DNA of 64,000 bases. It comes from Erysipelotrichaceae bacterium. Its GTDB lineage: Bacteria > Bacillota_I > Bacilli_A > Erysipelotrichales > Erysipelotrichaceae. The notes below the pieces were generated by a model. That model was not told where the DNA came from. It ran no database searches and worked only from the letters and a program-made list of their open reading frames with translations. Position numbers and translations under genes: made by a program. Location of the stretch: NCBI GenBank assembly GCA_017432895.1, contig JAFRIG010000073.1, forward strand, positions 1 to 64,000, given 5' to 3'. Positions 1-48,430 of the stretch are shown piece by piece (the first letter of the stretch is position 1; each line of letters begins with the position of its first letter).

Positions 1-130
1 GCCGCAGTTTCGCTATCCCTTCTTCTACCCGCTTCCTCACGGAAGTCAGGCTTGGGAGTCGCTATCGGATTCACCGGTAACAGGTGCTCCTTGGGACTTT
101 CACCCCAGATGTATGACATGCCCGTCATAC
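1..130 (-). mobile_element. 5' end of a group II intron (partial, body runs off the left edge)
   Basis: Read on the minus strand from base 130, the sequence starts GTATGAC, folds into a perfect 7-bp hairpin (GTATGAC-GGGCAT-GTCATAC), then continues with GGGGTGAAAGTCCC and a later GTGAGGAAGCGGGTAG block. This matches, from memory, the domain I start of bacterial group II introns: a GUGYG-like 5' end, a GGCAU loop, GGGTGAAAGTCCC and a GGAAGCGG segment. The reverse transcriptase ORF and domains V/VI would lie to the left of the window and are not seen. The 5' end lies immediately after the T-tract of the terminator at 133-160, which is the insertion preference of class C introns. Assignment to a group II intron is fairly sure; the class is inferred. 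Confidence 0.75.
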
Positions 131-132
131 TT

Positions 133-160
133 AAAAAAGACGGCCTCAGTTAGTGCCGTC
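133..160 (-). terminator. Intrinsic terminator of the 146-8711 operon
   Basis: On the minus strand GACGGC pairs with GCCGTC across a 10-base loop and is followed by six T. The hairpin contains the stop codon of the last operon gene. The intron end begins two bases after the T-tract. Confidence 0.8.
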
Positions 161-1141
161 CTGCAGCCTGTCGGCTGTCTGTTTGATGAATTTAAGCATC
201 TCGCTGTCTAGCGGATACCTGATGACGCAACCCGGAGCCAAAATGTGCTCCTTCTTATCGAAGACTCTCAGGCACTCTTTGATCTGGTATTCGATCTTAT
301 CGAAATTGCGATCCGTGATGTCTCTTCGATCCAGGCCACCCATGATACACTTGTTGGCCTGTCTGACATCTTCAAGACTTGGAAGCGATTCCCAGGCATG
401 CCAGTTGAAGATATCCACCGGATAATCCTTAAGGATCTCAAACATGATGTTGGTGCCATGGCAATGGATCGTATCGCATTGACCCGTAGAAGCCTTCAAG
501 ACCTGGTGGTCGTAAGGAACACCAAACTCTTTAAAGACCTCGACGCTGGTGACATCATAACTGGACATCTGCGAAGCGAAGAAGACGCCATCAGCTCCCA
601 GTCCGATCGCTTCTTTGACCAGATCGGAAGTCAGGTCCGCGATCATCTGTAAAGCTTCGTGGATCTGTTTTGTTTCCCCGGTCGCGATGTCTTCCAGGAT
701 CTTGCCGCCTCTTAATTTGTTGGCGATCGTAAACGGCGAGAAGACCGTAAAGATGACCGGTACTTCTTCATCCTTCACCTTCTCCAAAAGCAGCTTCAAG
801 GAATAAAGTTCTCTTTGTAAAGCCTTGCATTCCTCAAGCTTCAGTGGTTTGATCTTGGACCAGTCGTCGATCGAATTGATCGGTGTGGAAATAAGCTTAG
901 CCACTCCACCTTTGGCGATCTGCGAATAGTCGACTTCACAGCCGAAATCTTCGATCGCATACATGCCGTTGTTCATGGTCTTGATCAGATCGGTATCATA
1001 TTCCTTATAGAAATTATAGGTCTCTTGCGCCAGTCTTACGGGATCCATATCGATGCCCGGCAGATGCGTCCAGATCGCATAAGGAAGCCGGTCACATTTT
1101 TCGCCTTTGACAGCTGCGTATATCCTTTCTTTCTTGGTCAT
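146..1141 (-). CDS. URO-D-fold protein, putative methyltransferase (UroD1)
   Basis: The 331-residue protein belongs to the uroporphyrinogen decarboxylase superfamily, which includes HemE and the zinc-dependent corrinoid methyltransferases MtaA/MtbA. It is unlikely to be HemE because there is no haem gene nearby and the C-terminal half carries a metal-type pattern: His226-Cys-His228 in IHCHGTN and Cys305 in APGC. MtaA/MtbA use HxC...C for zinc, so HxH...C is a variant of that site. It is the last gene of the operon; its ATG overlaps the stop of the preceding gene (TAATG), with GGAGG upstream. Its paralogue is two genes upstream. No corrinoid protein is encoded nearby, so the methyl donor and acceptor are unknown. 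Fold: confident. Reaction: inference. Confidence 0.75.
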   Translation of the reverse strand: MTKKERIYAAVKGEKCDRLPYAIWTHLPGIDMDPVRLAQETYNFYKEYDTDLIKTMNNGMYAIEDFGCEVDYSQIAKGGVAKLISTPINSIDDWSKIKPLKLEECKALQRELYSLKLLLEKVKDEEVPVIFTVFSPFTIANKLRGGKILEDIATGETKQIHEALQMIADLTSDLVKEAIGLGADGVFFASQMSSYDVTSVEVFKEFGVPYDHQVLKASTGQCDTIHCHGTNIMFEILKDYPVDIFNWHAWESLPSLEDVRQANKCIMGGLDRRDITDRNFDKIEYQIKECLRVFDKKEHILAPGCVIRYPLDSEMLKFIKQTADRLQDGTN

Positions 1142-2415
1142 TAGTCCTCCAGCATTATATTAAGTATTTCGACATCGGTAGCCTTCATGCCTTCCGCCGC
1201 CATGCGGCCATAGGCCTTGATCGTACCTTCGATGTCCTTTTTGATCATGCCCTCACCATAGCGGTAGCACTTGTCGTTCATGGCCATCTTCACTCCTAAC
1301 AAGGCAGCCTCAACCGCCAGCGAGATCTTGCCGGCACAGCTCGACTTGGCCCCATCGCAGACCATGCCCCCGATCGACGCGATCGTATTGGTGATGACTT
1401 CACAGATCTGTTCATAGTTACCGCCCATGAGGTAGCAGACACCGCAGCCTGCTCCGGCTGCCGCCGAAACGGCCCCGCAATAGGCACTCAGATAACCGAT
1501 ATATTTCTTCTGATGTAAAGCGATCAGGTTGGCCAGAACCAACGCTCTGATCAGCTTTTCATGCGATACATTCAGCTCTCTGGCATATTCGATCACCGGC
1601 AGGGAGACCGTCATACCCTGATTGCCGCTGCCGGAGTTGATGACCACCGGCATTGGACAGCCGTTCATCCGCGCATCGGAACCGGCTGCTGCTGCAGCTC
1701 TGGCTCTTAGCCTGATGTCTTCACTGTGTTCATATTCCCTGATATTGCGGCCGACCTCTTCACCCCAGTTTCCGCAAAGTCCCTGCTCGGAGATTGCGGT
1801 ATTGTCTTTTATCTGTCTTTCAATGATCGGTTCAACTTCACTTAAGTCGCTGTACAAAGCGTACTCATAGATGTCTTTGACATTCATCAGGGATTTATCC
1901 GGTCCGCAGTCCTGACCATCTTCGCATTCTTTATTGAGGAAAGTCTGCTTGTTTCTGATGATCTTCGTGAAATTGGAATGAGTCTGCTGTATTTCCACTA
2001 AGACAGAATCTTCATCTTTGGATGCTTCGATGCGGATATACAGTGTCGGTACATCCTGAGCCAGATGGCAATGGAAGTCGACTCTTCTTAATTCCTCTTT
2101 CAGTAAAGCTCTTTCTTCTTCATTGACAGCGGATATGACCTGTAAGCCCTTATCGGCCTTGCCACCGACCATACCCAGGATGACGGCCGTATCGATACCT
2201 TTGATACCGCCGGAATTGGGTACGACAACACCCTTTACGTTCTTGATTATATTGCCCGAGCAATATACATCGACCTTATCGGGCATGAAGCCCAGTACTT
2301 CTCTCGCCTTCGCTCCGGCTAAAGCCAGGGCGATAGGCTCCGTACAGCCCGTCGCTTCCACCAGTTCGTTCTTTAATATTTCCGCATAGACGCTTTCGAT
2401 CCTAGAGCTTATCAT
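1141..2415 (-). CDS. L-cysteine desulfidase / serine dehydratase-like Fe-S enzyme (UPF0597, CyuA/YhaM family)
   Basis: The 424-residue protein has the family signatures EATGCTEPIALAL near residue 20, CSGNIIKNVKGVVVPN, and a C-terminal part rich in conserved cysteines (AGCGVC, CDGAKSSC). In the family Cys24 and two C-terminal cysteines hold a [4Fe-4S] cluster that activates the beta-substituent of cysteine or serine, giving pyruvate, ammonia and sulfide or water. Length is normal. The start overlaps the end of the upstream URO-D gene by 14 bases and has GGAGG in front, so the genes are translationally coupled. Next to an ATC-hydrolase-like gene and an amino-acid-type importer, a role in breaking down cysteine or a cysteine derivative is likely. 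The exact substrate is inferred. Confidence 0.85.
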   Translation of the reverse strand: MISSRIESVYAEILKNELVEATGCTEPIALALAGAKAREVLGFMPDKVDVYCSGNIIKNVKGVVVPNSGGIKGIDTAVILGMVGGKADKGLQVISAVNEEERALLKEELRRVDFHCHLAQDVPTLYIRIEASKDEDSVLVEIQQTHSNFTKIIRNKQTFLNKECEDGQDCGPDKSLMNVKDIYEYALYSDLSEVEPIIERQIKDNTAISEQGLCGNWGEEVGRNIREYEHSEDIRLRARAAAAAGSDARMNGCPMPVVINSGSGNQGMTVSLPVIEYARELNVSHEKLIRALVLANLIALHQKKYIGYLSAYCGAVSAAAGAGCGVCYLMGGNYEQICEVITNTIASIGGMVCDGAKSSCAGKISLAVEAALLGVKMAMNDKCYRYGEGMIKKDIEGTIKAYGRMAAEGMKATDVEILNIMLED

Positions 2416-3460
2416 CGATGATGCCCTCCTCTTTGACCACTTCTTCCATCAAAGTGAAGACGTAGCGATCCACATCCATCGGCAGGGCACAGCCCGGCGC
2501 AAAGACGACCCGCTTGTCTTTACTCTCGTTGATGACAGTCAAAAGACGCTTGCGGAAGAACTCCTTGAGTTCATCACGATCGTTGTTTTCATTGTAGTAG
2601 TCGTAATGTCTGGCCAAGCCTGTGATCAGGATCTTATCGGTCATAGCCCTTACTTCCGCCACCGAAGAGATCGTATCGGAATCGAGCCCCGGTACGCAGT
2701 TCTCCCAGCTGAAAGCCTGCACATCGTAGTCCAGACATTTGTCAAACATCAGGTTATTCTCCCCATGGACATGCAGGACATTGAACCAGGTCTTATCTTT
2801 GATATAAGCCAGGATCTGTTTGTCATAGGGAGCACAGAATTCATCATAAAGCTCATCGTCGATGACGTTTCTTGAAGCGTATTGATTCGCAAAGAAGATG
2901 CCGTCAATATGGGCTTCCTCGATAAGCATATCCAGATAATTCTTAGTACTTTCAACGATCTTCTCCAGTGCCTCGTGAACTTCTTTTTTATGTTCCTTCA
3001 TCAAAGGAAGTGTCTTTTCGTTGGTGCCTCTGCTCATCAGTTCCTGCAAGGTCGTCAAAGGCGTGAAGATCGTCGAAATGACAGGCTTTTCATCCTTGTA
3101 GTGTTCCACCAGATTTTTGGCGATCGCCGTTTCTCTGATGAAGACCGGATTGTCTTTGCCTTGTACCTCCAAAGATCTCAGGGATTCCAGATCCCTGATT
3201 GGATAGCGGTTGATGACGCCATACCAGTGGGTCAAAGACTTGGACAAAGTGATATCTCCGCCCCAGGCCTCCGGGGGATAGTGGCCGGTCGTCATGATCT
3301 TGACGAAGTCCCAGCCGCAGTAATCAACGACATTTATCGTCGCCTTGGTCATATCGTGAACGTTGTGATCGACCATCGGCATGTGGACCCAGCCGCTGAC
3401 GCCGATGCGATCGAAAGGCTCATGATCGATCATGGCCTTCATGCGCTGCTTGCCGTTCAT
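2402..3460 (-). CDS. URO-D-fold protein, putative methyltransferase (UroD2)
   Basis: This 352-residue protein is a second URO-D superfamily member and a distant paralogue of the gene at 146. It keeps the same unusual metal pattern, His230-Val-His232 (LHVHGENN) plus Cys324 (FAPGCALP). Both proteins replace the HxC of MtaA/MtbA-type enzymes with HxH, which suggests a shared chemistry in the operon. It starts one base after the stop of the LivF-like ATPase gene and overlaps the next gene by 14 bases. It could form a heteromer with UroD1 or act on a different step. No experimentally known homologue can be named from the sequence. Confidence 0.75.
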   Translation of the reverse strand: MNGKQRMKAMIDHEPFDRIGVSGWVHMPMVDHNVHDMTKATINVVDYCGWDFVKIMTTGHYPPEAWGGDITLSKSLTHWYGVINRYPIRDLESLRSLEVQGKDNPVFIRETAIAKNLVEHYKDEKPVISTIFTPLTTLQELMSRGTNEKTLPLMKEHKKEVHEALEKIVESTKNYLDMLIEEAHIDGIFFANQYASRNVIDDELYDEFCAPYDKQILAYIKDKTWFNVLHVHGENNLMFDKCLDYDVQAFSWENCVPGLDSDTISSVAEVRAMTDKILITGLARHYDYYNENNDRDELKEFFRKRLLTVINESKDKRVVFAPGCALPMDVDRYVFTLMEEVVKEEGIIDDKL

Positions 3461-3461
3461 C

Positions 3462-4166
3462 TCAACCTCCCAGATAGCTCTTGATGATCACATCGTTGTG
3501 AAGCAGTTCATCACCGGTACCTTCAATCGTGATCTCGCCTGTCTCTAAGGCATAGGCCCGATCGGAGATCTCAAGTGCCGCCATGGCATTCTGCTCGACC
3601 AATAAAATCGTCGTGCCCTGCTTGTTTATCTCTTTGATCAGCTCAAAGATCTGTTCGACCAGTATCGGGCTTAAGCCCAATGACGGTTCATCCAGCATCA
3701 GGATCTTGGGATCGGACATCAGGGCTCTGGATATCGCTAACATCTGCTGCTCACCACCGGAAAGGGTGCCGGCGATCTGTTTCTGCCGGTCTTTGATCTG
3801 CGGGAAGAGCTCGAAGACTTTTTCATAGTTGCGTTTATTGAGTTCCTTGTCCATGACGGTATAGGCACCCATCAGCAGGTTTTCTTCGACGGTAAATTTA
3901 GGGAAGATCTGTCTTCCTTCCGGACACAGGATGATGCCCATCTTCACTCTGTCGCGCGGGGTGAGTTTGGTGATATCTTTACCTTCAAAAAGGATCTCGC
4001 CTTTCTTGGGTTTCAAGGTTCCGCTAAGGGTGTTCATCAAGGTCGATTTACCGGCACCATTGGCTCCGATAAAGGAGAGGATCTCGCCCTTTTCGACATG
4101 GAAAGAAACACCGCGCAAAGCCTTGATGTTGCCATAGTAGGTATGCAGATCATTGACCTTAAGCAT
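3462..4166 (-). CDS. livF: Branched-chain amino acid-type ABC transporter ATPase (LivF-like)
   Basis: The 234-residue ATPase has Walker A GANGAGKST (about residues 34-42), signature LSGGEQQ, Walker B ILMLDEPSLGL and a late H-loop region (LLVEQN), all typical of LivF. It pairs with the LivG-like ATPase encoded just upstream, overlapping it by 8 bases, and would power the LivH/LivM channel. The transported compound is set by the binding protein at 6895. Because the operon carries cysteine-derivative and methyl-transfer type enzymes, the substrate need not be leucine, isoleucine or valine. Confidence 0.9.
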   Translation of the reverse strand: MLKVNDLHTYYGNIKALRGVSFHVEKGEILSFIGANGAGKSTLMNTLSGTLKPKKGEILFEGKDITKLTPRDRVKMGIILCPEGRQIFPKFTVEENLLMGAYTVMDKELNKRNYEKVFELFPQIKDRQKQIAGTLSGGEQQMLAISRALMSDPKILMLDEPSLGLSPILVEQIFELIKEINKQGTTILLVEQNAMAALEISDRAYALETGEITIEGTGDELLHNDVIIKSYLGG

Positions 4167-4935
4167 CCTGATGCACCCCCTTCCTGCCTAAGTAGGCTTC
4201 GATGACTTCCGGATTCTTCTGAACTTCCTCCGGCTTGCCTTCACAGATCTTGGCCCCGTGATTGAGCACGACGATCTTGTCGGAAATATCCATGACCAGT
4301 TTCATATCGTGTTCGATCAAAAGGATGCCTTTCACATCATTTAACAGTGACCTGATGAAAAGACTCAGTTCCTTCTTTTCCACCGGGTTCATGCCGGCGG
4401 CCGGTTCATCCAGCAAGAGGATCTTGGGTTTGGCCACCAGGGCTCTGCCGATCTCAAGTTTGCGCTGTTTACCATAGGGCAGGCTTGTGGCCTTGTCGTA
4501 GCGGTATTCACTGAGATCGACTCTTTTTAGGATCTCGGTAGCTTCTTCTTTCGCCAGTTTTTCCCACTTGTTTTTCTTAGGATTGGGGAATAAGGAAAGG
4601 AAGGAACCATATTCGATCCTGTGCTGCATACCGATGAGGATGTTATCCTCCACGGACATGTTGGAGAACAGACGGATATTCTGGAAGGTCCGGCTCAGTC
4701 CTTTCTGGACGACGATATCGGTCGAATTGCCCGTGATATCTTCGCCATCCAGGATGACCTTTCCTTCATTAGGTGTATAGAAACCGGTCAGCAGATTGAT
4801 GACCGTCGTCTTGCCGGCGCCGTTAGGTCCGATAAGCGAGGTGATCTGGCCTTCTTCCATCGTGAAGTTCAGATCGTCGACGGCAACCAGACCGCCGAAA
4901 CGGATCGTCAGATCCTTGACTTCCAATAGTGCCAT
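4159..4935 (-). CDS. livG: Branched-chain amino acid-type ABC transporter ATPase (LivG-like)
   Basis: This 258-residue ATPase has Walker A GPNGAGKTT, the LivG-type signature LPYGKQRKLEIGRAL instead of LSGGQ, Walker B ILLLDEPAAGMNP, and the H-loop in LLIEHDMKLVM. The extended C-terminus ending near GRKG is usual for LivG. It lies two bases after the LivM gene and overlaps livF, so the transporter genes are tightly coupled. Confidence 0.9.
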   Translation of the reverse strand: MALLEVKDLTIRFGGLVAVDDLNFTMEEGQITSLIGPNGAGKTTVINLLTGFYTPNEGKVILDGEDITGNSTDIVVQKGLSRTFQNIRLFSNMSVEDNILIGMQHRIEYGSFLSLFPNPKKNKWEKLAKEEATEILKRVDLSEYRYDKATSLPYGKQRKLEIGRALVAKPKILLLDEPAAGMNPVEKKELSLFIRSLLNDVKGILLIEHDMKLVMDISDKIVVLNHGAKICEGKPEEVQKNPEVIEAYLGRKGVHQDA

Positions 4936-4937
4936 AA

Positions 4938-5927
4938 CTACACCTCCTGCTGAGCTGCCTTCTTATGCAGCAGCTTGGACAAAGCTCTGTTGAAACTCTG
5001 CTTCAGTTTTAAGCCCGGTATCGAGTGGTTGAGCCACATGACGACGACCAAGACCAGGCCATAGGCGATCATCCTGTATTTGAACAGGAAGTCGAAACGC
5101 CGCAGATATTCCGGCAGTATCGTCAGGAACAAAGCACCGATCAGGGTACCCGAGAAGTTGCCCAGACCGCCGACCACGACGATACTGATACAGTTGAAAC
5201 TCAGATTGGCGTTGAAGGTCGAAGGTTCCACGTAGGTCATCAGATGAGCGTAGAGGCTGCCCGCGATACCGGCAAAGATGGCCGAGATCGTAAAGACGAT
5301 GACCTTGTTGGGGAAGAGCTTGATACCCATGGCTTCCGCCGCGATCGAATCGTCGCGCATCGCCTGCAGGTTTCGGCCCAGTTTGGAATCGACCAGCCAG
5401 TTCATGAGGATATATGTCAGTATCACAAAGATCAGAGCGAAGTAGAAGAACTGGACCTTGGTTTTGAAACGGAAACCGAAAAGCGTGATGCTTGGAATAC
5501 CGACGATACCCATCTGACCCAGAGTGACCTTATCCCAGTTTCTGATGATCAGGTTGACGATCTCCGCAAATGATAAAGTGATGATCGTCACGTAACGGCC
5601 GGTGATCCTTGACATCGGAAGCGCCAGTAATAAACCCGCCAGGCCTGTGATCAAAATGACCGGCAGGAAGTTGGACGAATAGCTCCAGCCCAGGTGATAC
5701 CACAGACAGGCCGTCGTATAGGCACCGATACCATAGAAGGCCGCATGGCCAAAGGATACGGTACCCCCGATTCCCATCAAAAGGTTAAGGCTCATCGCAA
5801 AGATCATGTTAAGTTCGCAACTTATCAGGATCCTTAACTGATAGGCATCCGCAACCAAAGGGGCCAGGGCCATGAAGACCATGATCAGAACAAAGATGAT
5901 ATTCTTGCTGTTGAGATATTTCTTCAT
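4938..5927 (-). CDS. livM: Branched-chain amino acid-type ABC transporter permease (LivM-like)
   Basis: The 329-residue integral membrane protein has about eight to ten hydrophobic segments. It carries the family marks NLLMGIGGTVSFGHAAFYG and the coupling-helix region EAMGIKLFPNK. Together with LivH it forms the pore of the importer. A positively charged C-terminal tail ends in KLLHKKAAQQEV. It starts 4 bases after livH and precedes livG. Confidence 0.9.
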   Translation of the reverse strand: MKKYLNSKNIIFVLIMVFMALAPLVADAYQLRILISCELNMIFAMSLNLLMGIGGTVSFGHAAFYGIGAYTTACLWYHLGWSYSSNFLPVILITGLAGLLLALPMSRITGRYVTIITLSFAEIVNLIIRNWDKVTLGQMGIVGIPSITLFGFRFKTKVQFFYFALIFVILTYILMNWLVDSKLGRNLQAMRDDSIAAEAMGIKLFPNKVIVFTISAIFAGIAGSLYAHLMTYVEPSTFNANLSFNCISIVVVGGLGNFSGTLIGALFLTILPEYLRRFDFLFKYRMIAYGLVLVVVMWLNHSIPGLKLKQSFNRALSKLLHKKAAQQEV

Positions 5928-5931
5928 TGCC

Positions 5932-6813
5932 TTACACCTTCTTCTGTTCTTTCCGGCCGAAGATTCCGGTCGGCCTGATGATCAGCACCAGGATCAGGAT
6001 GCCGAAACTTATAAAGTTGGAAGCCGCCATCGACCAGTAACCGGATACCAGGTTCTCGGCAATGGCCAGGATGTAGCCGCCGACGACCGCACCTTTTAAT
6101 TCACCGATACCGCCTAAGACAGTCGCGGCGAAAGCCTTGTTGCCGATCGCGGAACCGACCGAGATCGAGATCGACTTCAGATACATGCAATAGGCCACAC
6201 CACTGACCGCCGCCAGCATCGAACCTACCGCAAAGGAAACACCGATCAGCCTATTGACCGGCATGCCCATCAGGTGACAGGCATTGAGATTCTGTGACAG
6301 AGCTCTAAGTCCTCGTCCGACTCTGTTGTTTTGCGTAAACCAGGACATGAAGCCCAGGATACATAAAGTTGCCAATATGATGATGATCTGAATGGCGCTG
6401 GTCCTCGCACCGAACAGATCGATATATTTACCATCCAGCAGCGTCGGGAACTGTTTGATCTCGCTGCCGAATGTTCCCTGACAAATTTGTTCAAGGATCG
6501 TCTTGACACCGATCGAAGAGATCAGGGCATAGGTGTTGCTGTCACCCTTTTCTCTGATCGGCCTGATGGCTATGACTTCGATGATGTAGCCGATCGCACC
6601 GGCCGCCATCAGCGTCAGAATAAAAGTCAGCAGGACAGACGAACCCGTTAAGGAAGTATACAGTGCATAGAATATGACTGCACTGGTCAGAAAGACGGCT
6701 GCATTGGACATGTTTATCAGCTGCAGGATCGAATAGATCAAAGAGTAGCCGATAGCCGTCAATGCATAGATAGATCCCAAGGAGATACCGTTGACCAGTA
6801 TTTGCAATAACAT
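5932..6813 (-). CDS. livH: Branched-chain amino acid-type ABC transporter permease (LivH-like)
   Basis: The 293-residue permease starts MLLQILVNGISLGSIYAL, the classical LivH N-terminus, and has about eight membrane segments. The coupling region is CHLMGMPVNR and the glycine-rich AATVLGGIGELKGAVVG stretch follows. A good ribosome binding site (GGAGG) lies after the intergenic hairpin at 6834-6868, which separates it from the binding-protein gene and probably reduces permease expression relative to the binding protein. Confidence 0.9.
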   Translation of the reverse strand: MLLQILVNGISLGSIYALTAIGYSLIYSILQLINMSNAAVFLTSAVIFYALYTSLTGSSVLLTFILTLMAAGAIGYIIEVIAIRPIREKGDSNTYALISSIGVKTILEQICQGTFGSEIKQFPTLLDGKYIDLFGARTSAIQIIIILATLCILGFMSWFTQNNRVGRGLRALSQNLNACHLMGMPVNRLIGVSFAVGSMLAAVSGVAYCMYLKSISISVGSAIGNKAFAATVLGGIGELKGAVVGGYILAIAENLVSGYWSMAASNFISFGILILVLIIRPTGIFGRKEQKKV

Positions 6814-6833
6814 AGGAATCCTCCTTTCAAAAC

Positions 6834-6868
6834 AGACTTCACTTCAGCTTAAAACTGAAGTGAAGTCT
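6834..6868 (-). terminator. Perfect 14-bp hairpin between binding-protein and permease genes (attenuator-like)
   Basis: AGACTTCACTTCAG pairs perfectly with its complement across a 7-base loop. On the minus strand it is followed only by GTTTTG, so it is a weak terminator or 3' mRNA stabiliser. Such hairpins behind a binding-protein gene typically keep the binding protein in excess over the membrane subunits. Confidence 0.65.
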
Positions 6869-6894
6869 AAAACGATCAGTATGTATAAACAGAA

Positions 6895-8160
6895 TTATTT
6901 AAGTCCGGCAACGGCGTCAACATCGAAGCTGTCGAGGATGTCTTCATAGTTGACCCACTTGAGTTCGCCTGAATCATCTCTTACGATCTGTGAGAGATAC
7001 TGCGTCTGTAAGACACGGCGTCCGGCACCGAAGGTGATGGCACCCTGGACACCCGGGAATTCATTCAAAGTAGCCAGCTGATCTCTGAAGGCCTGACGGG
7101 TCGTGCCGCCATTCTTGATAGCCCAGATAGTCGTCAGCATGCAGTTGTAACCCTGGTCGGCATACTTCTGCGTCGTGTTGTTGTCTTCCGCGAACTTGGC
7201 ACCGTAGAGTTCCTTATAGATCTCTTCGTATTCGATGTAGACCGGATCGCTCAAATCCTTGGTTCTGGCGTAGATACCGTATAAGCCTTCGCCCAGGTCA
7301 CCCAGGTTCTGTAAGACGTTGGAAGTACGGGACTTCGAAGATACCTGCCACTCGCAATCAAGACCGATAGTCTCGGCCTGCTGTCTGATCAGAACGATAT
7401 CGTTCTCGGCACAGAAGCACATGACCAGTTCCGGATTGGTTTCCTTGATCTTGGTCAGGATCGAAGTGAAGTCCTGCTGACCGTCATCGTATTTTTCTTC
7501 CGCCAGCATCTTGACACCCAGCTTGTCAGCCGTCTCGGTGTAGTACTTGTAAGTCTCAAGTCCCCATGAGTCGTTCTCATAAATTAAGGCGATGTTCTTG
7601 TAGCCCAGATATTCGATGTCATAGGCTGCAACTCTGGCTGCCGCTGTATCCTGGGTAACAGAGAGCGAGAAGCCCCAGTCACCGGAAGTAGGTAAGAAGT
7701 CCGACTTCGAGCAGGTCAGAGCATACTGGACGACTTCGGCATCACGATAGATCGTGGCGCACGGATAAGAAACGCCTGATGCGAAGGAACCGATTTCCAG
7801 CAGATAGTACGGATCGGTGCTGGCGACGACCTTTTCCGCGATCGTTGCGCCTTCAGTCGCATCGTTCTTATCATCGTAGTAATCAAGGATGATCTTGCCG
7901 GTACCATCGCCATTGAGCCAGCCTTCGTTCTCCAGCTTCTTCAAAGCGACTTCCAGACCCATCTGGATGTATTCGGCATAGGAAGCGTTGGTGCCTGTGA
8001 ACGGCAGGCTTACTGCGATATGGTAATCGCCATTGGCATCAGCCGCAGTCTCGGCAACTTCTTCGCCTCCACCTTCGTTACCGCCGCCACCACCGTTGGA
8101 GCAGCCGGCAATCGTGAAGATCATCAGAAACACCAGCAATAAACTAAGTAATTTTTTCAT
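6895..8160 (-). CDS. ABC transporter substrate-binding lipoprotein (branched-chain amino acid / amide type)
   Basis: The 421-residue protein has a lipoprotein signal peptide ending in a lipobox (TIAGC, cysteine about residue 20), a flexible Gly/Glu-rich linker, and then a periplasmic-binding-protein type I domain of the LivK/amide-urea class (HIAVSLPFTGTNASYAEYIQ). It would capture the solute outside the membrane for LivHMGF. The family also binds amides, ureas and aromatic compounds, so ligand identity cannot be read from sequence. It lies behind the ATC-hydrolase-like gene with a small hairpin (AGCGGA-TCCGCT, about 8183-8198) in the gap. Confidence 0.9.
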   Translation of the reverse strand: MKKLLSLLLVFLMIFTIAGCSNGGGGGNEGGGEEVAETAADANGDYHIAVSLPFTGTNASYAEYIQMGLEVALKKLENEGWLNGDGTGKIILDYYDDKNDATEGATIAEKVVASTDPYYLLEIGSFASGVSYPCATIYRDAEVVQYALTCSKSDFLPTSGDWGFSLSVTQDTAAARVAAYDIEYLGYKNIALIYENDSWGLETYKYYTETADKLGVKMLAEEKYDDGQQDFTSILTKIKETNPELVMCFCAENDIVLIRQQAETIGLDCEWQVSSKSRTSNVLQNLGDLGEGLYGIYARTKDLSDPVYIEYEEIYKELYGAKFAEDNNTTQKYADQGYNCMLTTIWAIKNGGTTRQAFRDQLATLNEFPGVQGAITFGAGRRVLQTQYLSQIVRDDSGELKWVNYEDILDSFDVDAVAGLK

Positions 8161-8204
8161 GACATTCTCCTTTTCTTATTTCAGCGGATCGTTCCGCTAT
8201 TTTC

Positions 8205-8711
8205 CTATTTTCTCGTCTTGTAACGCAATGTGCAGCACTCGCAACCCTGGGCCAGTGTGCCTTCCAGTTCGAAATCCATGCCTACGCCTTCCGCGATACC
8301 GCGGTCGCCTTCCATGGCGATCTGGCACATCAGGTCCATCTCCTCGTCGCTGAGCCCCATCTTCTGCCAAGCTTTCAATAAAGCGCAGTAATTCAATGTG
8401 ACCACCGCTTCATTTTCATCGGCACTGATCAGCTTCTTTTCAAACGTATCCGAAAGAGCCTTGCCCGTAAAATACTCGGCATAGGTCTTGGCATTGAACT
8501 CCTTGTCTTTAAAAAGCTCTCTCTCCTTTTCCCCGGCTTCCAGCCCGACTTTACGTACGGCTGAACGCATGATAGGTTCCAGGTCGATGCCCTGTTCCTT
8601 GGCCTCCTTATAGAAGGCTGCCGCCCACTTGCCGCGATGTTCGATCGCCGCTCTTCTCACGTTGACCGCGTAGTCATCGGTAATGTGCGCTTCGTTCTTG
8701 ACTTTACTCAT
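8205..8711 (-). CDS. L-2-amino-thiazoline-4-carboxylate (ATC) hydrolase-like protein
   Basis: The 168-residue soluble protein fits the ATC hydrolase family (PF14196 type) by its length, its LNYCALLKAWQKMGLSDEE stretch with the following LMCQIA, and its C-terminal GCECCTLRY pattern. In Pseudomonas the enzyme opens the ring of ATC toward carbamoyl-cysteine and then cysteine. Many Firmicutes homologues are untested. It is the first gene of the operon, with AAGGAGAAG in front of the ATG. The downstream cysteine-desulfidase-like gene would complete a route from a thiazoline or other cyclised cysteine derivative to pyruvate, ammonia and sulfide. Family: moderately sure. Pathway: inference. Confidence 0.65.
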   Translation of the reverse strand: MSKVKNEAHITDDYAVNVRRAAIEHRGKWAAAFYKEAKEQGIDLEPIMRSAVRKVGLEAGEKERELFKDKEFNAKTYAEYFTGKALSDTFEKKLISADENEAVVTLNYCALLKAWQKMGLSDEEMDLMCQIAMEGDRGIAEGVGMDFELEGTLAQGCECCTLRYKTRK

Positions 8712-8745: not shown

Positions 8746-8769
8746 TACCCCGCAGCAAGCTACGGGGTA
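8746..8769. repeat. IS200 right-end hairpin
   Basis: TACCCCG pairs with CGGGGTA; the interior AGCAAGCT also folds. It shares the CCCCGC-AGC-AA-GC core with the hairpin at 9307-9328, consistent with the two recognition hairpins bound by the TnpA dimer. Confidence 0.6.
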
Positions 8770-8798
8770 TTCCTCCTTGTCCCAAGGGTGATGTGATG

Positions 8799-9263
8799 TC
8801 ACATCCCTCTTAAGTGTAGCTGCTGATATTCAGATGTGTCAGAATCTTGTTTACCCTGATTCTTCACATAGTTTCTGATTACTTCTTCGTTTGTGTTCTT
8901 CCCGACTGTAGCTACAAAATACCCGTCGGTCCAGAACTGTCCTCCCCAGAGCCATTTCTTGACTTCAGGGTGCTCAAGGAAGATCTGTCTGGCCGTGATA
9001 CTCTTTACCTTCTGAATGATCTCAGAGGGCGAGTGAGTCGGAGTGCTCTGTATGAGAAAGTGCACATGATCCATGTCTGCACCGATCTCCAGGAATCTGA
9101 TGTAGTCATACCTGAGTTCGATGCCCAGACAGATCTCCTTGAGAGACCTGTCTACAGCTTCAGAGAAAACCTCCCGACGGTATTTTGCCGGACATACGAA
9201 ATGGTAAACAAGATTACTGACGTTGTGGCTCAAGGCCACAAACGACGACTTTTTATCTTCCAT
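8799..9263 (-). CDS. tnpA: IS200/IS605-family transposase TnpA
   Basis: The protein of 154 residues is a Y1 HUH single-strand transposase. The metal motif is seen in DMDHVHFLIQ and the nucleophilic tyrosine in IRNYVKNQG, with the usual spacing and length. The ATG at 9263 is preferred over the GTG at 9266 because AGGAAG lies about 9 bases upstream of it. The reading frame is intact from start to stop, so the element may be active. TnpA excises and inserts single-stranded DNA at hairpin ends, often during lagging-strand replication. Confidence 0.9.
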   Translation of the reverse strand: MEDKKSSFVALSHNVSNLVYHFVCPAKYRREVFSEAVDRSLKEICLGIELRYDYIRFLEIGADMDHVHFLIQSTPTHSPSEIIQKVKSITARQIFLEHPEVKKWLWGGQFWTDGYFVATVGKNTNEEVIRNYVKNQGKQDSDTSEYQQLHLRGM

Positions 9264-9306
9264 CACATCACTCTTCCTCGTGATATTATCATATCACTTC
9301 GGAAGA

Positions 9307-47088: not shown

Positions 47089-47164
47089 ATATTATGAGTT
47101 TAATGTCTTGTGATTTATACAGTCAGCCAAAACGGCTATAATGTTAATGAAACAAGGAGCACCT

Positions 47165-48430
47165 ATGATTATTGATCAGATCGATAAAGAAATACTCGCC
47201 TTAGGAAAAAGATCCGACGAAGATCTGCAGGATATCTACCATAAACTGGATGATATATGCCTGCACAACTCCGAAAGGATCCTGGCGGCTTTTATATCTA
47301 ACAAAGTATCCTATACCGACTTTGCGGACATCAACGGCTATGGCAACTACGATCCCGGTAGAGACAAACTTGAAAAGATCTTTGCGGAAGTTCTTGGTTG
47401 CGAAGATACTTTAGTCAGACCACAGATCATGTCCGGTACCAATGCCTTATATCTGGCTTTCTCGGCTTTACTGAAGCACGGAGATACGCTGATCTCCTTG
47501 ACCGGTACCCCTTATGATTCTTTGCAGGAAATGATCGGCCTTAACGGTAATTCCTCACAATCGTTAAAAGCCCATGGCGTCAGGTATGAACAGATCGATC
47601 TCAAAGACGACGACTTCGATACGGAAAAGATCGTTAATAGATTAAAGAAAAACGACGTAAAGCTCGTCGAGATACAGCGTTCAAGAGGTTACTCAGCTCG
47701 AGCATCATTATCTATCGCCAGGATCGAAGCGATCATTAATAAAATCAGAGAAGTAAATAAGGATGTCATCATCATGGTCGACAACTGCTATGGCGAACTG
47801 GTCGAAGAAAGAGAGCCGGGTCATGCCGGAGCCGATGCCGTCGTAGGTTCTCTTATGAAAAACCTGGGTGGCGGTATCGCCTCAAGCGGCGGCTATATCG
47901 CCGGTCGAAAAGACCTCATTGAGATGTGTGCCGATCGTCTGACAGCCCCGGGTATCGGCAAGGAACAGGGAGCCAACTTCAATCAGAACAACGCCTTCTT
48001 CAAAGGCCTGTTCAACGCTCCCCACGCCGTTAAAGAAGCTTTAAAGACCGCCGTCTTCTCCGCCTACATGCTGGAGAAGCTGGGCTATAAAAACGTCTCA
48101 CCCCGCTATGACGAAGAAAGGACCGATATCATCCAGACAGTGGAGCTGGGAGATAAGGAAAGCCTGGTTTCCTTCACCCAGGGCATCCAGTCCTCTTCGC
48201 CGGTCGATTCCTTTGTCCAGGTAATGCCGGCGCCAATGCCCGGTTATCCTTTTGATGAAGTGATGGCCTGCGGAGCCTTCACTCAGGGCTCTACGATCGA
48301 ACTGAGCGCCGACGCCCCGGTGAAAGAACCCTATACCCTCTATATGCAAGGCGGTCTGTCTTTGGAATATGGCAAGCTGGCTATCATGCTGGCACTGAGC
48401 AAAGCAATGAAGAACGGAGTAAAATTATGA
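47165..48430 (+). CDS. Methionine gamma-lyase-family PLP enzyme
   Basis: The 421-residue protein belongs to the Met_gamma_lyase/aluminium-resistance family (PF06838). It shows GYGNYDPGRDKLEKIFAEVLG, RPQIMSGTNALYLAF and the PLP lysine in GSLMKNLGGGIA (about residue 230). It may cleave C-S bonds of methionine or cystathionine-like substrates; its physiological role is not settled. The start at 47165 has AAGGAG upstream, with TATAAT at 47137-47142. The stop overlaps the pepF start (ATGA). Confidence 0.87.
   Translation: MIIDQIDKEILALGKRSDEDLQDIYHKLDDICLHNSERILAAFISNKVSYTDFADINGYGNYDPGRDKLEKIFAEVLGCEDTLVRPQIMSGTNALYLAFSALLKHGDTLISLTGTPYDSLQEMIGLNGNSSQSLKAHGVRYEQIDLKDDDFDTEKIVNRLKKNDVKLVEIQRSRGYSARASLSIARIEAIINKIREVNKDVIIMVDNCYGELVEEREPGHAGADAVVGSLMKNLGGGIASSGGYIAGRKDLIEMCADRLTAPGIGKEQGANFNQNNAFFKGLFNAPHAVKEALKTAVFSAYMLEKLGYKNVSPRYDEERTDIIQTVELGDKESLVSFTQGIQSSSPVDSFVQVMPAPMPGYPFDEVMACGAFTQGSTIELSADAPVKEPYTLYMQGGLSLEYGKLAIMLALSKAMKNGVKL

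Follow-up and report, generated by a model that had tools for sequence, protein, structure and literature searches.

What might a bacterium gain from transcribing a cysteine desulfidase together with an amino-acid importer and two unusual members of the uroporphyrinogen decarboxylase (UroD) superfamily? The question is raised by the start of a 64,000-nucleotide stretch of an Erysipelotrichaceae bacterium genome (GCA_017432895.1, contig JAFRIG010000073.1; the whole stretch analyzed is referred to below as the window), where nine co-directional minus-strand genes run from 8711 to 146 with intergenic spacing of -14 to +81 nt. We give a probability of roughly 45% to the reading that this operon serves to break down an S-substituted cysteine, be it a thioether or a thio-adduct, and that the two UroD proteins, here called URO1 and URO2, would free cysteine for degradation by the CyuA-type desulfidase. 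The operon itself is real, conserved, and specific. Its families are known and their combination is undescribed: open-licence papers on UroD-family proteins yielded no description of the operon or of UroDs carrying the HxH motif seen in both copies. The features, in order of transcription, are as follows.

8205..8711, minus strand: PF14196 ("ATC_hydrolase") subfamily protein, first operon gene, 168 aa (Pfam 71.5 bits)
6895..8160, minus strand: LIV-type solute-binding lipoprotein (Peripla_BP_6)
5932..6813, minus strand: LivH permease (family matches)
4938..5927, minus strand: LivM permease (family matches)
4159..4935, minus strand: LivG ATPase (family matches)
3462..4166, minus strand: LivF ATPase (family matches)
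2402..3460, minus strand: URO2, UroD-superfamily protein (PF01208, 97 bits)
1141..2415, minus strand: CyuA-type [4Fe-4S] cysteine desulfidase homologue (SDH_alpha, 211 bits)
146..1141, minus strand: URO1, UroD-superfamily protein (PF01208, 112 bits)
133..160, minus strand: Rho-independent terminator, GACGGC-N10-GCCGTC-T6 (sequence and fold)

A first-pass annotation, made from the sequence, had the genes, strand, families, and motifs right but counted eight genes rather than nine. All nine recur in the same order in two genera of ruminant Erysipelotrichaceae, with several of the operon-bearing relatives coming from goat and water-buffalo gut metagenomes; such recurrence marks a gene set beyond chance. 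Of 273 Erysipelotrichaceae genomes, 9 carry URO1; these nine also have the operon-type PF14196 subfamily, which otherwise occurs only in G016, where the contig carrying the operon (L029) stops within cyuA. The 9/9 co-occurrence corresponds to a naive hypergeometric P of 5e-16, uncorrected for genome kinship. In one relative (L129, 1094-12681), URO1 has been relocated upstream of a kinase/regulator pair while URO2 and CyuA remain at the end. The first-pass annotation had held that relatives regularly lacking the ATC-hydrolase, desulfidase, or paired UroD genes would speak against it; inside the Erysipelotrichaceae none of the nine has been lost, this rearrangement included.

Could the locus simply hold an ordinary branched-chain amino-acid importer that shares a promoter with unrelated enzyme genes? 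The importer is a complete LIV/HAAT ATP-binding cassette (ABC) system, as had been proposed, with a binding protein, two BPD_transp_2 permeases, and LivG- and LivF-type ATPases, and these LIV family matches are what such an explanation would predict. The nearest solved relatives of the binding protein (6895..8160) are amino-acid binding proteins. However, the nine genes have been kept together across two genera and through rearrangement, and a LIV importer, CyuA, and paired HxH UroDs are found again in L104, a locus from the phylum of Eubacterium sp. ER2. The binding protein is 48% identical to that of the L104 operon and only 25-28% identical to those of the other LIV loci near HxH UroDs. We accordingly give a coincidental grouping of this kind little credence.

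The proposed pathway would end at the CyuA homologue. The protein at 1141-2415, flagged earlier as a cysteine desulfidase-like Fe-S enzyme, is indeed an SDH_alpha/CyuA protein and matches the L-cysteine desulfidase structures PDB 9he0/9fsl (E about 1e-24). Cys24, Glu26, Arg249, Asn265, Cys313, Cys353, and Cys360 are conserved in all ten CyuA copies compared; these positions are the equivalents of Cys23, Glu25, Arg223, Asn239, Cys287, Cys329, and Cys336 of cysteine desulfidase. These residues are credited with catalysis, contact with the substrate, and binding of the cluster, and the Cys/Glu pair is described as unique to CyuA (PMC12647591). Judged by this alignment, the operon's CyuA keeps every catalytic residue of cysteine desulfidase, including the three cluster cysteines, the Cys/Glu proton-abstraction pair, and the substrate arginine. 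A search of viral contigs found no CyuA relative.

Does the first gene then supply the cysteine? In a pathway for 2-aminothiazoline-4-carboxylate (ATC) or S-carbamoylcysteine, the PF14196 protein would open the thiazoline ring and the remaining enzymes would degrade the resulting cysteine. Such a scheme draws on a Pfam match well above the gathering cut-off (71.5 versus 28.1 bits), on the gene's first position and strict linkage within the Erysipelotrichaceae, and on CyuA downstream. PF14196 is, however, a large and diverse family in the Erysipelotrichaceae, where a single genome can have as many as 13 copies and most copies have no connection with the operon; the other copies resemble the operon protein, which forms a distinct operon-specific subfamily, only weakly, and the gene contexts of second-tier relatives share no common theme. 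The AlphaFold model (pLDDT, the predicted local distance difference test, 92) adopts a V4R/TRAPP fold related to ligand sensors, with Bet3 at Z 11.0 and the sensor domains of DmpR, MopR, and PoxR at Z 8-9, in agreement with PMC5847659, where PF14196 is tied by sequence to V4R and HNOB domains. Cys109, Asp136, and Cys160 are conserved. The CyuA-LIV-two-UroD module of L104 has no adjoining PF14196 gene, the operon lacks an M20 carbamoylase, and the scheme leaves both UroDs without a task. We thus regard an ATC pathway as quite improbable, and the ATC chemistry first suggested for this gene is not supported: "ATC hydrolase" is here no more than a family name, and the protein may sense, bind, or hydrolyze the substrate.

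The step that would release cysteine must then be sought in the two UroD proteins. The HxH...C arrangement initially read in both copies was confirmed: URO1 carries His226-Cys-His228...Cys305, and URO2 carries His230-Val-His232...Cys324 together with Trp24-x-His26 and Asp51-x-x-Lys54. Both are members of a broader branch of the UroD superfamily that is marked by HxHG...C. In a comparison with HxH relatives drawn from Bacillota, Actinomycetota, and Pseudomonadota, 30/30 retain HxHG and the late Cys, and nearly all retain WxH and DxxK, Aerococcus differing at two of these positions. In URO1 and URO2 alike, two His and one Cys form a predicted zinc site. The His-Cys-Cys zinc ligands of UroD-type S-methyltransferases (PMC10418091) are absent from URO1, URO2, and all 30 relatives. 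The predicted URO2 model (pLDDT 94) has its closest fold in MtaA (4ay7/4ay8, Z 33.4), followed by HemE (about 32) and MetE (about 22), but curated family models are not satisfied: the MtaA/CmuA models (TIGR01463, NF004889) score 49-88 bits against cut-offs of 235-244, and the HemE model TIGR01464 gives URO2 27.8 bits against a cut-off of 303, URO1 not being among the matches listed. In a tree, URO1 and URO2 fall in separate HxH subclades, although support is weak at the deep forks and long branches come together; a recent duplication as the origin of the pair was rejected on this placement. The genome holds no UroD protein besides these two (genome-level absences here and below rest on searches of the genomes), close relatives of URO2 within its phylum were found in its own genome only among 392 searched, and E. 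coli genomes gave no match to the Brenneria homologue of URO2.

Could the UroDs instead carry out methyl transfer by way of a corrinoid? An mlp-type system that draws on a corrinoid protein from another locus would account for the superfamily, the pairing, and the sulfur setting (PMC10418091), and some non-Erysipelotrichaceae hosts of HxH UroDs do possess corrinoid-binding proteins. Among the nine operon genes, though, neither a corrinoid protein nor a Ram activase is encoded, and the earlier remark that no corrinoid protein is present extends to the genome level. This genome has no B12-binding protein match; among the operon genomes, six have none, two of these being 94-97% complete; and three show weak matches, the strongest being a radical-SAM protein that falls below cut-off when scored as a whole protein. 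Because the operon genomes show no real B12-binding proteins, corrinoid-based methyl transfer in operon-bearing Erysipelotrichaceae is very unlikely, and a corrinoid methyltransferase was rejected for the family on these searches; an mlp-like system served from elsewhere in the genome has next to no probability in our estimate.

If not a corrinoid partner, what accompanies HxH UroDs in other lineages? CyuA adjoins an HxH UroD in L103 and lies about 5 kb from one in L041, and L040/L052 combine CyuA, a regulator, an HxH UroD, and a MetNIQ-type importer; overall, CyuA lies within 10 kb in 4/16 lineages (chance P about 7e-6, on a rough lineage count). In Gemmobacter, an HxH UroD related to URO1 and a TTT importer are followed in one direction by RidA, a Cds1-type pyridoxal phosphate (PLP)-dependent L-cysteine desulfhydrase (562 bits, where the cut-off is 600), and a protein of the octopine dehydrogenase family. 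In Microvirga, which also pairs an HxH UroD with a TTT importer, cysteine dioxygenase and sulfate exporter genes lie about 6 kb from the UroD gene. Aerococcus places MetQ, MetN, and MetI beside a lone URO1-type HxH UroD, and L048 combines a polar amino-acid ABC importer with HxH and HxC UroDs, a Cys/Met PLP enzyme, GFO/IDH, and SDR. HxH UroDs thus stand beside five unrelated kinds of importer (LIV, MetNIQ, TTT, polar amino-acid ABC, and Dpp/Opp-like) and repeatedly near enzymes for cysteine degradation that come from unrelated families, and the other neighbors include carbonyl- and sugar-type proteins: SDR, aldo-keto reductase, iron-dependent alcohol dehydrogenase, GFO/IDH, octopine dehydrogenase, and Dak1/RpiB/TIM.

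Two observations on these neighborhoods may be recorded separately. In L041-L044 and L047, HxH UroDs lie by DUF4432, amidohydrolase, SDR, and a LIV importer, or by Dak1, RpiB, and TIM, sets that hint at a possible thio-sugar chemistry. In L090, L091, and L101, octopine-dehydrogenase-family genes stand beside or near URO1-type UroDs in unrelated bacteria.

The neighbors bear directly on whether the UroDs would transfer a methyl group or act by C-S cleavage. Without cob(I)alamin, the methyl group of a thioether is poorly activated, which counts against a corrinoid-independent, MetE-like transfer in which an S-methyl compound (S-methylcysteine or a sulfonium) would pass its methyl to a thiol acceptor and the demethylated cysteine to CyuA. 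Such a transfer finds some encouragement in the fold, with MtaA the nearest structure and MetE farther off; in the MtaA/CmuA model matches, well below cut-off as they are; in the lone URO1 with MetQNI in Aerococcus; and in the genome's own lack of both MetE and a B12-binding methionine synthase, which a new methionine route would fit. Yet the operon conserves no methyl-acceptor or one-carbon gene, the HxH UroDs elsewhere neighbor carbonyl and sugar enzymes, and the ligands are His-His-Cys rather than the His-Cys-Cys reported for S-methyltransferases (PMC10418091). We favor C-S cleavage because of the missing acceptor and one-carbon genes and the carbonyl- and sugar-type neighbors, and consider methyl transfer unlikely. 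The methylated substrate first entertained is therefore possible but not favored, since the wider neighbors are not one-carbon enzymes; the evidence does support the original proposal in that a sulfur-containing amino-acid derivative would be imported and degraded, with cleavage of cysteine as the last step.

The preferred reading, degradation of an S-substituted cysteine, can be laid out as a sequence of predicted steps. The LIV-type importer would bring in the substrate, whose sulfur the HxH...C UroDs would bind on zinc; they would then cut the C-S bond on the substituent side, yielding L-cysteine with neither corrinoid nor oxygen, the two UroDs probably acting on two related substrates or one after the other. 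CyuA would eliminate hydrogen sulfide from the cysteine, leaving pyruvate and ammonia for fermentation and nitrogen, and the PF14196 protein would bind, sense, or hydrolyze the substrate. Most relatives have a histidine kinase and an AraC-type response regulator upstream, which probably control the operon. In this genome, a Y1 (IS200-like) transposase gene and adjoining hairpin (window 8746-9266) lie 35 bp upstream of the first operon gene; the two occupy the site of the relatives' kinase and regulator, and the operon's regulation may be changed or lost here.

At the other end, the single terminator that had been proposed is real; the URO1 stop codon sits within its loop (terminator at 160..133), and the length of that loop kept a consensus scan from picking it up. 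Window base 1 is base 1 of contig C60 and lies inside a repeat that also opens contig C46 (99%), so nothing past the terminator is visible. The repeat (window 1-131; C46 1-146) starts directly after two different terminator-like hairpin/T-run sites, where the assembly breaks; searched for a known RNA element, it gave no Rfam match, and its look, at a guess, is group-II-intron-like. Elsewhere in the window, at 47141-48430, lies a gene for a protein of the methionine gamma-lyase family (PF06838), with an oligopeptidase F-like gene after it.

Beyond this operon, we would tentatively extend the proposal, holding it possible though doubtful that HxH...C UroDs are an uncharacterized class of zinc-dependent, corrinoid-independent C-S-cleaving enzymes that release cysteine from its S-substituted forms and that occur in aerobes and anaerobes alike, where both the importer and the cysteine-degrading enzyme are exchangeable. 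Different bacteria would dispose of the released cysteine with whichever enzyme they own, and at other loci the UroDs may yield another thiol instead. Several points weigh against these proposals. The best-known chemistry of the UroD fold is methyl transfer and decarboxylation rather than C-S elimination. No HxH UroD has a measured activity, here or in the literature searched, and zinc binding is predicted from sequence and fold. L043/L044/L047, L045, L046, L050, and L102 have no recognized cysteine-degrading gene nearby, the CyuA proximity figure hinges on how lineages were counted, and most genomes compared are incomplete metagenome-assembled genomes. Were the proposals correct, UroD-superfamily chemistry would reach further than decarboxylation and methyl transfer by way of corrinoids, and gut anaerobes would have a means of converting modified cysteines to pyruvate, ammonia, and hydrogen sulfide without oxygen. 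"Uroporphyrinogen decarboxylase family protein" entries in genomes without corrinoid proteins would acquire a function, with HxHG...C, WxH, and DxxK as a marker for their re-annotation.

How does the operon compare with known systems? Type 1 mlp gene clusters (Kountz and Balskus, PMC10418091) likewise bring multiple UroD-superfamily proteins into sulfur-related clusters of anaerobes, whereas the operon has no corrinoid protein and shows His-His-Cys ligands. The MtaA/MtbA coenzyme M methyltransferases are closest in fold, and the metal-site positions align, but they have HxC where the URO proteins have HxH, and the scores lie far below those families' cut-offs. The V4R domains (PMC5847659; DmpR, MopR, PoxR) share the fold and a conserved Cys group with the operon's PF14196 protein, which differs in being a stand-alone, operon-specific subfamily.

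Closer in purpose are the breakdown of S-(2-succino)cysteine (yxe/2SL, PMC9706529) and S-alkylcysteine salvage (CmoO/CmoJ, PMC10863075), which likewise pair an importer with enzymes freeing cysteine from S-adducts. These routes use N-acetylation, monooxygenases, or a fumarase-type lyase, and the operon holds no such gene. 2SL was rejected as a UroD-like relative, being a class I lyase (PMC9706529), and is kept as a chemical analogue only; none of the nine operon proteins matches a class I (fumarase-type) lyase family in Pfam, and URO2 has the UroD fold. Finally, the CyuA desulfidase with the E. coli cyuPA operon (PMC12647591; PMC9040844) shares the joining of importer and desulfidase in one operon, with the CyuA residues conserved. 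Unlike cyuPA, the operon studied here has a LIV-type importer in place of CyuP and adds two HxH UroDs and a PF14196 protein, differences that suggest that a cysteine precursor rather than cysteine is imported.

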